Shown: piece by piece, positions 54,687 through 57,939 of the stretch
Position numbering within the stretch: the first letter of the stretch is position 1
Layout: the number at the start of each line of letters is the position of its first letter
Assembly (NCBI GenBank): GCA_946407635.1
Contig: CAMJOZ010000002.1
Span: 1-62,232, forward strand
From: an uncultured Caryophanales bacterium
GTDB lineage: Bacteria; Bacillota_I; Bacilli_A; Acholeplasmatales; Anaeroplasmataceae
Length of the DNA: 62,232 bases
Direction: 5' to 3'
The notes under the pieces: model-generated
What the model was told of the DNA's origin: nothing
The model's input: the letters and a program-made list of their open reading frames with translations, nothing else
Database searches by the model: none
Made by a program: the position numbers and the translations under genes

Positions 54687-55256
54687 ATGAAATTAATTAT
54701 TGGACTTGGAAATCCAGGATCTCAATATGAATTAACAAGACATAATGTTGGTTTTATAATTATTGATGAATTTGCCAAAAGAAATAATATAGAATTCAAA
54801 TTAGATTCTAAATTAAAGGGTGCTATAGGTACTAAAACAATAAATGGTGAAAAGATTATGTTATTAAAGCCAATGACTTATATGAATTTGTCTGGTGAAT
54901 CAGTTATTGCAGTAATGAATTATTATAAAATAGAAGTTGATGATATTATTGTAATAAGTGATGACTTAGATTCACCACTTGGAAGAATTAGATTAAGAGA
55001 TCATGGATCTAGTGGTGGTCATAATGGTCACAAAAATATAGTTAATCATATTCATTCTGAAAATTATAAGAGAATAAAAGTTGGTATCGGTAGGGATGCA
55101 AATATTCCAGTTGTTGATTGGGTATTAAAAAAGCTTAATGAAGATGAGCTTGCAACAATCAATCAAGCAGTTGATAAAGCATGTGATGCTTTAAATGATT
55201 ATGTAAATGGAATAGATTTCATGAAAATAGCTTCTAAATATTCAACTAAAGCATAA
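54687..55256 (+). CDS. pth: Peptidyl-tRNA hydrolase
   Basis: Recycles tRNA from stalled peptides. Seen over 189 residues: IIGLGNPGSQYELTRHNVGF (with catalytic His in TRHNVG, about residue 20), LLKPMTYMNLSGESV, DDLDSPLGRIRLRDHGSSGGHNGHKNI. Usual family length. Two bases after prs, so co-transcribed; terminator follows. Confidence 0.96.
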   Translation: MKLIIGLGNPGSQYELTRHNVGFIIIDEFAKRNNIEFKLDSKLKGAIGTKTINGEKIMLLKPMTYMNLSGESVIAVMNYYKIEVDDIIVISDDLDSPLGRIRLRDHGSSGGHNGHKNIVNHIHSENYKRIKVGIGRDANIPVVDWVLKKLNEDELATINQAVDKACDALNDYVNGIDFMKIASKYSTKA

Positions 55257-55281
55257 ACAGGATTTAATCCTGTTTTTCTTT
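55255..55281 (+). terminator. Terminator of prs-pth
   Basis: AAACAGGAT/ATCCTGTTT with a three-base loop and T run. Confidence 0.88.
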
Positions 55282-55306
55282 TTTGTTAGTGATATAAATA
55301 TCGTAA

Positions 55307-55335
55307 TTGATTATTATCATCAATTGTGATATTAT
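55307..55335 (+). promoter_or_regulatory. Promoter of the riboswitch transcript
   Basis: TTGATT (55307-55312), 17-base spacer, TATTAT (55330-55335) preceded by TGA, giving an extended -10. Transcription would start near 55342, before the aptamer. Confidence 0.6.
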
Positions 55336-55360
55336 TATTTCGTATTTTAATAGATTCCAT

Positions 55361-55477
55361 AAAAGGGAGTAGAAACCTGTTATACAGGATTATGTGTCGT
55401 CATACCCAGTATTAAAAAATACTCGTACATAAGTTAAATTTCGAGACTTTTACCATTTGGTAGGAGTCTTTTATTTT
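55361..55477 (+). promoter_or_regulatory. yybP-ykoY (manganese) riboswitch with terminator
   Basis: Aptamer 55361-55450: AAAAGGGAGTAG at the 5' side, helix CCTGT/ACAGG (55376-55388), helix TTATGTG/TACATAA with the conserved TCGTCA loop (55397-55402), a small AGTATT/AATACT stem, and closing CGAGACTTTT. This order matches the Lactococcus yybP-ykoY aptamer. The terminator GACTTTTACC/GGTAGGAGTC (55445-55454, 55459-55468) plus T run shares GACTTTT with the aptamer's closing helix. Inference: manganese binding stabilises the aptamer, blocks the terminator and turns the gene on. Confidence 0.8.
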
Positions 55478-55495
55478 TAGAAAGAAGGTTATTTG

Positions 55496-56548
55496 ATGAT
55501 TCCTGAATTTTATGAAGGTTGGGCTGCAGCCCCCAAGATTTTAATATTAATTGCATTTATGGCTGTTGGTGTTTTCTTCTTGGTTAAGTTTTGTGATTTG
55601 TTTGTAGGTTCTGCCTCAGCTATCGCTAAAAAATTACATATAGCCCCAATGATTATTGGTTTGACTGTTGTTGCGATGGGAACATCTTTACCAGAACTTG
55701 CAGTTTCAGTATCAGATTCTATTGGATGTTTAATAGATGGTGGTAATGCAAATGTAGCGATTGGTAATGTTGTTGGTTCAAATATAGGCAATATATTATT
55801 GGTATTAGGTTTATCAATAATTTTTACACCTATAATAATAAAAAAGAGTAATTTATATAAAGAATTTCCTGTCTTAATTGGTGTTTCATTATTGTTATTC
55901 TTATTTGTAATAATTTATGGTAGCGCAACTGGTAATTATGTTATTACTAGATGGATGGGTATTATATTTATAGTTTTAATTATTGCTTATATAGCATTCT
56001 TAGTAATCGATGCTAGAAGACATCCAGTAGAAGGAAACCAAGAAGAAATAAAAGATATGAATATGTGGAAGGCAATATTATTTGTCATTTTAGGTGCAGC
56101 AGGTATAGCTGCTGGCGGTGAATTTGTTGTCTTTGGAGCTAAAGGTTTAGCTGTTACTGGCGCGACTGCTATGGGAATTAATCATGATTTAGCTGAATCA
56201 TTAGTAGGATTAACAATTGTAGCTGTTGGAACATCTTTACCAGAGCTTGTAACAAGCGTTGTTGCAGCTAAAAAAGGCGAAAATGATATTGCATTAGGTA
56301 ATGTTATTGGTTCTAATATATTCAATATATTATTTGTTTTAGGTATTTCCGCGACAGTAAATCCATTAACTACAGGTAGTGAAATAGTTATTGATTTAGT
56401 TGTTATGATGACTGTAACATTGTTATTATTTGGTTTTGCATTAACTAAAAAATTAAATAAAAAAATGGGTATAATATTCCTTGTAATTTATGCTTTATAT
56501 TTAACATATTTAATACTAAGAACAGTAGGAGTAATCCCACAAATATAA
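55496..56548 (+). CDS. CaCA-superfamily (YrbG-like) cation exchanger
   Basis: Membrane antiporter of 350 residues with about ten helices. Seen: the two alpha repeats, GTSLPELAVSVSDS with NVAIGNVVGSNIGNILLVLG and GTSLPELVTSVVAAKKG with DIALGNVIGSNIFNILFVLG, each with the conserved Glu and Asn residues that bind calcium and sodium. The acidic loop between halves is short. The ATG at 55496 follows AGAAGG. Known: relatives exchange Na for Ca. A manganese riboswitch in front suggests it also, or mainly, exports manganese; this is inference. Confidence 0.88.
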   Translation: MIPEFYEGWAAAPKILILIAFMAVGVFFLVKFCDLFVGSASAIAKKLHIAPMIIGLTVVAMGTSLPELAVSVSDSIGCLIDGGNANVAIGNVVGSNIGNILLVLGLSIIFTPIIIKKSNLYKEFPVLIGVSLLLFLFVIIYGSATGNYVITRWMGIIFIVLIIAYIAFLVIDARRHPVEGNQEEIKDMNMWKAILFVILGAAGIAAGGEFVVFGAKGLAVTGATAMGINHDLAESLVGLTIVAVGTSLPELVTSVVAAKKGENDIALGNVIGSNIFNILFVLGISATVNPLTTGSEIVIDLVVMMTVTLLLFGFALTKKLNKKMGIIFLVIYALYLTYLILRTVGVIPQI

Positions 56549-56551
56549 AAT

Positions 56552-56582
56552 AAGAAGAGTTTTACTCTTCTTTATTTTTATT
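56552..56582 (+). terminator. Terminator of the exchanger gene
   Basis: AAGAAGAG/CTCTTCTT (56552-56559, 56565-56572), loop TTTTA, T-rich tail. Confidence 0.87.
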
Positions 56583-56613
56583 ATATATGATAAAATTTTT
56601 ATGAGGGATTATT

Positions 56614-57939
56614 ATGGCAACGAAAAGGCAAAAGAAAAAAGCATATAACACAACTAAAAAAATAGCAAAAAAATATCCAATAATATTTATAGTGATTTTA
56701 ATAATTATAATTGCATTAGGTGTTACTGCATTCATATTATATAATAATGGATATTTTGATAAATGGTTTAATAAAAATACAAATAATAGTAATAATGAAG
56801 TCCCTATTGAGGTTAATGGAGATGTTCAAATCTATTCCATTGAAATGCATGATGAATATGGTGATTCTTTATTCATAAAATATGGCGATTATGATATTTT
56901 GATTGATGCTGGAGATAGAGGAGATGGAGAATTTGTTAGAGATTTTGTAGATTCGCATATCTCTAGTGATAAAAACCTAGACATATTAGTTGTTACACAC
57001 TGCCATAGTGATCATATGGGTGGATTAACAAAAATGTCTAATTCTGATTCTGACCCTAAAGCATTAGATAATGTTAAAACAATATCTAATATTATCGATT
57101 TTGGTCATATGAGATCTAATTACACAATGTATAAAACATATAACACTTTAAGACAATCATTTATAGATAAAGGGACACATTATTATTCAGCTTATGAAGC
57201 AGTTAAGCACACTGGTGGATTATCAAATATTATTAATTTAGGTGAATTATCAGTTGAAATTCTTGATACATTTAATTATGCTGATAAAAATACAGATTTA
57301 GTTGGAGATATTGATTTCAATGCATATAGTGTAGCAACATTAATCACTTATAAGAATACAAAATTATTCTGTGCTGGTGATTTGGAAAATGTTGGTGAAA
57401 AGACATTGGTTGAGCACGCCAATGAGACATCATTAAAGAATGTGAAAAAAGAAGATACTGTTATTTATAAAGCTTGCCATCACGGAACAGACGTCGGAAC
57501 AGCTAATAATAAATCAACAGGATATAAATCTACTAATGGTGGGAATAGAATGGCTTTATTACAATTATTAAATCCAGATTATTGTTTTGTAAGTGCCGCT
57601 ATTAATGAATCTGACCATCCATTCCCTAGAGCGATTGCAACCATGCTTTATTTTACAAATAATTTATATTTCAATGGAACAATGGGAACAATATGCTTTG
57701 ATTTAGATGGAACAAATGTAGGAGTTCAAGGCTTAGGTGCGACAACAAATTATAAACTTGATGGATTTACTATTGACTATGAAGCAGAAAAGAATTTAAA
57801 ATATATAGATACAGTATGGTATAATAATCATGTCTTTAAAGGCGCTAAAGCTTGGTATACAGGGGATATTGAAAACCCAACAGACAAAGAATTGACAGAA
57901 TGGTATTTAGAAAAGCTAAAGAATGATTATCCAAAATAG
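56614..57939 (+). CDS. Membrane-anchored MBL-fold hydrolase (ComEC-C-like)
   Basis: A 441-residue protein. Seen: a basic N-terminus, one membrane helix (about 24-46), a polar linker, then a metallo-beta-lactamase domain with DILIDAGDRGDGEF, the metal motif THCHSDHMGG (about residue 128), LFCAGDLENVGE and ACHHGTDVGTAN. This resembles the C-terminal domain of ComEC without its channel. The basic N-terminal tail suggests the catalytic domain is outside. TGATAAAAT at 56588 could be its -10. Nuclease or phosphodiesterase activity is possible, not shown. nrnA follows 14 bases later. Confidence 0.85.
   Translation: MATKRQKKKAYNTTKKIAKKYPIIFIVILIIIIALGVTAFILYNNGYFDKWFNKNTNNSNNEVPIEVNGDVQIYSIEMHDEYGDSLFIKYGDYDILIDAGDRGDGEFVRDFVDSHISSDKNLDILVVTHCHSDHMGGLTKMSNSDSDPKALDNVKTISNIIDFGHMRSNYTMYKTYNTLRQSFIDKGTHYYSAYEAVKHTGGLSNIINLGELSVEILDTFNYADKNTDLVGDIDFNAYSVATLITYKNTKLFCAGDLENVGEKTLVEHANETSLKNVKKEDTVIYKACHHGTDVGTANNKSTGYKSTNGGNRMALLQLLNPDYCFVSAAINESDHPFPRAIATMLYFTNNLYFNGTMGTICFDLDGTNVGVQGLGATTNYKLDGFTIDYEAEKNLKYIDTVWYNNHVFKGAKAWYTGDIENPTDKELTEWYLEKLKNDYPK

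Follow-up and report, generated by a model that had tools for sequence, protein, structure and literature searches.

The Mn2+ riboswitch yybP-ykoY (RF00080) is known from L. lactis, X. oryzae and the E. coli mntP leader. In the excerpted text of PMC6754395, an invariable adenosine in loop L3 gives its N7 to Mn2+ and an adenosine in L1 is conserved, the quoted L3 contexts being ACA-UACU and UCA-AUUC. In L. lactis the helix P1.1 acts as the switch helix and competes with a terminator (PMC11087558, in part). The S. pneumoniae mgtA aptamer (Martin et al. 2019, as described in excerpts of PMC9495176) is a three-way junction that binds both Ca2+ and Mn2+; its affinity is higher for Ca2+, yet transcription is activated more strongly by Mn2+. 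The pairing of this riboswitch with a CaCA exchanger has been described before. In Bordetella, Mn2+ induces the CaCA-superfamily protein BP3410 by way of a yybP-ykoY riboswitch whose leader is recognised by Rfam (8.5e-15), calcium is without effect on BP3410 expression (data not shown in that paper), and a functional copy of the gene is accompanied by about five-fold less cell manganese (PMC8546581, excerpts). For Vibrio vulnificus, yrbG is mentioned as being under yybP-ykoY control (PMC13274385, excerpts). A search of the open-licence literature found no title on the lineage described below.

We analysed a window of 62,232 nucleotides, the whole stretch of DNA under study, from a gut bacterium of a rumen Bacilli lineage. 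Gene family, aptamer homology and covariation, the overlap between P1 and the terminator, and the company of other manganese exporters were all computed here. Where the original prediction had placed it, 5' of a CaCA gene (55496-56548), we found a yybP-ykoY-type leader with an overlapping terminator (55361-55478); its structured part (aptamer fold, 55361-55451) lies inside the 239-base gap between pth and the CaCA gene. The parts of the locus are the following.

54687-55256: pth (PF01195).
55255-55275, + strand: terminator-like hairpin at the end of pth, a 9-pair stem and T run that parts pth from the leader.
55361-55451, + strand: yybP-ykoY-type aptamer core, a three-way junction without P4 (covariation and a match to the covariance model R1 described below; no RF00080 match).
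55361-55365, + strand: 5' strand of P1.1, the switch helix, with its partner at 55447-55451 (AAAAG/CUUUU; folding and covariation).
55366-55371, + strand: 5' strand of L1 (GGAGUA), facing GAGA (letter conservation).
55372-55375, + strand: 5' strand of P1.2, with its partner at 55439-55442 (GAAA/UUUC).
55376-55388, + strand: P2 hairpin (folding and alignment).
55390-55432, + strand: arm composed of P3.1, L3 and P3.2 (folding and alignment).
55402, + strand: L3 adenosine matching the Mn2+-sensing A41 of L. lactis and A48 of X. oryzae (sequence context UCA/ACA).
55443-55478, + strand: intrinsic terminator with stem 55443-55470 and T-rich tail; it shares bases with the 3' strands of L1 and P1.1.
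55483-55488, + strand: Shine-Dalgarno-like AGAAGG (sequence).
55496-56548, + strand: CaCA (YrbG/TIGR00367-type) cation exchanger of 350 aa, the proposed Mn2+ exporter.

From 5' to 3', the aptamer is composed of P1.1, L1 with GGGAGUAG, P1.2, P2, P3.1, L3 with UCA, P3.2 and the 3' strand UUCGAGACUUUU, with P1.1, P1.2, P2, P3.1 and P3.2 paired around L1 and L3. Loop L3 is UCGUCAUACCC, and the counterpart of the quoted L3 contexts is UCA-UACC. The arm is followed by a 6-base junction, GUUAAA, in place of P4 and a four-way junction; the missing P4 was not treated as excluding, because a three-way junction has been reported for S. pneumoniae mgtA (PMC9495176, in part). A promoter search gave 8 sites against 10.7 expected from shuffles and was thus no better than shuffles. 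Elsewhere in the window, 56614-57939 encodes a protein of the metallo-beta-lactamase fold that starts with a hydrophobic N-terminal segment and to which the Avs1a MBL model matches weakly (36 bits against a cut-off of 420); at a guess, it is probably an ordinary hydrolase.

The original prediction had looked to the Rfam yybP-ykoY model for confirmation, which the scan did not give. At the gathering score RF00080 hit nothing in the window, and at E<=10 it matched neither 55250-55560 nor any other place in the source genome. It likewise gave no match at the gathering score in the 20 CaCA loci scanned (of 42). Nine of the 55 family genomes had one match each at E<=1, always below the cut-off, and among 149 genomes of the phylum there was one match at E<=0.001. 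This failure reflects the model and not a biological feature, because the E. coli mntP leader fails too, with 41.6 bits against a cut-off of 45 (L199, 5462-5558), and the P1 pairs are absent from the printed consensus structure of RF00080. The Na+ (DUF1646) and Li+ (nhaA) riboswitches were dropped as candidates, neither being listed when the leader was scanned against Rfam at E<=10. Although Rfam misses the aptamer, alternative folds, covariation and homology support the predicted yybP-ykoY aptamer and its mutually exclusive terminator.

Covariation was assessed in the leaders of CaCA relatives, for which 42 loci were fetched (42 of the 55 family genomes have a CaCA match). Leaders of the GGGAGTAG type were sought at these loci by script, which turned up 29 distinct sequences; 26 of these make up alignment A2. 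L057 and L066 were omitted for their closeness to kept rows, and L073 was also omitted, a four-way form that precedes a gene reading as a P-type ATPase. Two-sided changes occur at 22 of the 28 pairs across the 26 leaders, compared with 17.3 on average in shuffles, and the covariation score is 0.396, compared with 0.149 when shuffled and at most 0.229 when slid. The covariance model R1, built from A2 and trained largely within the family, matches the window at 55359-55455 with 88.6 bits, the window being one of its 26 training sequences; no other match was found in the source genome. At E<=0.1, R1 gives 125 matches in 54 of the 55 family genomes, as against nine of 55 for RF00080 at E<=1. Of 295 phylum genomes, 62 have matches at E<=0.001 (77 in all), six of these 62 belonging to the family; the matches outside the family number 66, in 56 genomes. 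The larger alignment A3 has 102 rows, of which 100 are distinct; its 100 loci comprise 75 of the 125 in the family, 24 from the phylum and L073. In A3, which was itself fitted to the model, all six helices covary (0.721 against 0.196 shuffled), 98% of the cells of P1.1 and 95% of those of P1.2 are paired, and all four P1.2 pairs show two-sided changes. Every letter of L1 GGGAGUA is kept in at least 100 of the 102 rows and the counterpart of the L3 adenosine is A in all 102, the rows having been picked by a model that favours these letters. L1 and the CA of L3 are alike before mntP, P-type ATPase, CaCA and SPFH genes.

The link to accepted leaders runs through both models. Eight of the nine RF00080 places in the family (E<=1) are R1 places too, and six of these eight, with RF00080 E values from 3.6e-8 to 5.5e-4, lie before P-type ATPases, have a P4-like hairpin and stand outside the R1 training set; the ninth match (G048:C15) is not an R1 place. 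R1 also matches the four-way L073 (39.4 bits) and weakly recovers the E. coli mntP leader at the right place (17.7 bits, E 0.015 in 24 kb). The alx leader was not found by R1 in a 24-kb search, and scored 13.1 bits (E 0.0027) when a selected 302-base stretch, running from 5' of alx into the gene, was searched by itself with filters off. The leader shows homology to accepted yybP-ykoY leaders (those that RF00080 also matches and, weakly, E. coli mntP and alx), and its riboswitch class is supported.

Folding is consistent with two competing structures. When 55359-55452 is folded alone, P1.1 and P1.2 form, with a stability at shuffle level (z -0.5; 55 of 200 shuffles at least as good). When the 3' arm of the terminator is included (55359-55475), P1 is lost, the terminator forms, and the whole is more stable than shuffles (z -3.1). 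The terminator has a 12-pair stem and a T-rich tail, and its 5' arm is the 3' half of P1 and L1; terminator-like sites in 55200-56700 number 8, against 0.4 expected from shuffles. Under one rule set, a terminator starting within the 3' strand of P1/L1 is present in 77 of 100 distinct leaders and 20 of 300 shuffles, and when a higher stem score is demanded, in 49 and 5, respectively. P1 and the terminator also vary together, CGCAG/CUGCA occurring with the terminator arm GAGACUGCAGUACC and UAUAG/CUAUA with AAGACUAUAUAUUUUCA.

The first open frame after the 125 family matches encodes a P-type ATPase in 30 cases, MntP in 26 and CaCA in 25 (24 genomes), or 81 of 125 together. The rest comprise flotillin-like SPFH (13), other SPFH (6), Na/Pi, TrkH, PHO4 and TauE proteins (one each), and other or none (21). 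Each cluster takes its name from a single scanned member (the CaCA cluster from the window's protein), and the choice of first frame errs in places, at least two of the 21 (L137 and L175) being mntP leaders that precede PF02659 matches. Outside the family, 64 of the 66 matches were read, as P-type ATPase (35), MntP (14), CaCA (9), Na/Pi (2), TrkH (1) or unmatched (3), these labels being best BLAST matches to the family set, with three of the nine CaCA at only 26-29% identity. The leader lies directly 5' of CaCA in 24 of the 42 family genomes with a CaCA match. In G024 it stands ahead of a Na/Pi gene that is followed by CaCA, and in G046 the contig start cuts the region, only 100 bases preceding the CaCA match. 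Another 16 have no leader adjoining CaCA, mostly with proteins of at most 52% identity, but G016 and G018, at 62 and 69% identity, are among them; G006 is cut by the contig end.

Several other genes follow the leader. Those for flotillin-like SPFH proteins do so in 13 family genomes (L107, L083, L085, L088, L089, L092, L096, L111, L113, L120, L123, L143 and L171), and those for a 331-aa SPFH protein in six (L189, L190, L192, L194, L195 and L196), where the leaders have a P4-like hairpin by reading; RF00080 gave no match to the L190 leader at E<=0.1. The SPFH / Band 7 identity comes from one scanned member per group, the Flot model being just under its cut-off. A tie between manganese sensing and membrane scaffold proteins is unexpected, and a literature search found no title on the pairing of riboswitch, manganese and flotillin. 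Further followers are Na/Pi symporters (L078 in G024 C1, L211, L217), TrkH (L082, L245), a PHO4 phosphate transporter (L112) and, in two genomes, a 437-aa protein (L207, L208).

The predicted YrbG-like sodium/calcium exchanger downstream of the leader was borne out by PF01699 (8.9e-62; 208 bits against a cut-off of 24.9) and TIGR00367 (4.9e-63; 213.1 against 179.65), and the existing annotation reads calcium/sodium antiporter. Its nearest solved structure by sequence is NCX_Mj (3v5s, 2.1e-34), whose ten known ion-ligand positions were used for comparison. The two alpha repeats have TSESN and TSESN at these positions, as do all 59 distinct CaCA relatives compared, leader or not. The labels in this comparison are rough (30 linked, 28 unlinked, 1 edge; L007 and L027 were labelled unlinked yet have a leader), and no signature of manganese linkage was seen in the ligands of the 59 proteins. 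With the ligands the same with or without the leader, the substrate is therefore not readable from these residues.

In eight of the 55 family genomes (G014, G041, G042, G044, G045, G046, G047 and G051) the CaCA match is followed on its own strand, at a distance of 101-128 bases, by a MntP match, and in seven of these, all but G046, the R1 leader directly precedes the CaCA-mntP pair. MntP is matched in 54 of the 55 genomes, the only exception being the window's own (G000), where the absence may be an assembly gap, the assembly being 95% complete in 100 contigs. Nramp has no match in the source genome and so adds no manganese importer context. Three E1-E2 ATPases are matched there, none with an R1 leader; by reading, one has HMA-like metal-binding motifs and one looks Cd/Zn-like. 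Export of Mn2+ by the window's CaCA protein is likely, and the case is strengthened because the same leader precedes MntP and P-type ATPases, eight relatives have CaCA next to mntP, the source genome gives no MntP match and BP3410 offers a precedent.

Taken as a whole, the explanation that the leader is a yybP-ykoY-type Mn2+ riboswitch before a CaCA exchanger that exports Mn2+ has, in our estimate, a probability of roughly 0.82. We infer Mn2+ as the ligand of this copy and the direction of the switch: as a member of the Mn2+ (yybP-ykoY) class, the leader would turn transcription on. At low cytoplasmic Mn2+ the nascent RNA would form the terminator 55443-55478 and transcription would stop. At high Mn2+, binding between L1 and L3 would dock the P1/P2 and P3 arms and hold P1.1 closed, preventing the 5' arm of the terminator (GAGACUUUU) from pairing, and RNA polymerase would read into the CaCA gene. 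The exchanger, for which we infer Mn2+ as the transported ion, would then extrude it against an inflow of Na+ or H+.

Other explanations share part of this evidence. The annotation of the protein as a calcium/sodium antiporter with the usual ligands kept, and the three-way-junction aptamer of Streptococcus with its higher affinity for Ca2+ (PMC9495176, in part), would fit a switch that responds to Ca2+ at least as strongly as to Mn2+, the exchanger being an ordinary Ca2+ exporter or exporting both. We consider this explanation, which in the form with export of both ions overlaps with the preferred one, unlikely: the Streptococcus switch is activated more by Mn2+ than by Ca2+ (same source), the excerpts of PMC8546581 report BP3410 expression as unaffected by calcium, and MntP, a Mn2+ efflux family, adjoins CaCA in eight relatives. 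A variant aptamer of the same fold with a changed ligand (another divalent ion or Na+), governing a wider membrane-stress or ion regulon that includes SPFH and phosphate/potassium transporters, would account for the SPFH genes after 19 of 125 matches and for the single Na/Pi, TrkH, PHO4 and TauE genes. It is very improbable in our judgement, with L1 and the L3 CA identical before mntP, P-type ATPase, CaCA and SPFH genes and with 81 of the 125 matches preceding P-type ATPase, MntP or CaCA.

The negative RF00080 result, and a P1 fold that alone is no stabler than shuffles, would agree with a plain terminator or attenuator that resembles a riboswitch by chance. All helices show compensatory changes, and 56 genomes from beyond the family have matches; these speak against it, and we give it almost no credence; the level of covariation refutes it for practical purposes.

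With a Mn2+ riboswitch and a Mn2+-exporting CaCA protein as the preferred explanation, a broader proposal may be made, although we hold it tentatively and rather doubt it. In this rumen Bacilli lineage a P4-less Mn2+ riboswitch, unseen by Rfam, might run a regulon beyond metal export, which CaCA joins and in which, in the window's species, it replaces MntP as the Mn2+ exporter, while SPFH (flotillin-like) scaffolds and some phosphate/potassium transporters would be switched on by the same ion. If true, manganese excess would be linked to membrane protein upkeep. In practice, RF00080 misses most such leaders in this group, and annotation relying on it overlooks manganese regulation here. The analysis also offers a likely substrate for 'calcium/sodium antiporter' proteins in many uncultured Bacillota.

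In comparison with the classic yybP-ykoY riboswitches of L. lactis, X. oryzae and E. coli mntP, the leader is alike in its P1.1/L1/P1.2, P2 and P3.1/L3/P3.2 layout, in the GGGAGUAG and A(A/G)GAC blocks and in the L3 adenosine, and as in L. lactis its P1.1 is common to the terminator (PMC11087558, in part). In contrast to them, it has no P4, forms a three-way instead of a four-way junction, and is not detected by RF00080. By description, it resembles S. pneumoniae mgtA in the three-way junction and the cation exporter downstream, although that switch controls a P-type ATPase and the window's a CaCA protein (PMC9495176, in part). Likewise by description, it resembles Bordetella pertussis BP3410 in having a CaCA-superfamily protein under a manganese riboswitch; BP3410 belongs to a proteobacterium and its leader is seen by Rfam, whereas the window leader is unseen (PMC8546581, in part). 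The protein is of the same family as NCX_Mj (3v5s/3v5u) by sequence and is alike at 9 of 10 ligand positions, D240 being replaced by N both in it and in its 59 compared relatives. Earlier reports cover the mechanism, the form without P4 and the CaCA partner one by one; therefore what is new here is their combination, as one further member. The locus is a solid further example of a known system, ordinary in kind and useful in practice.
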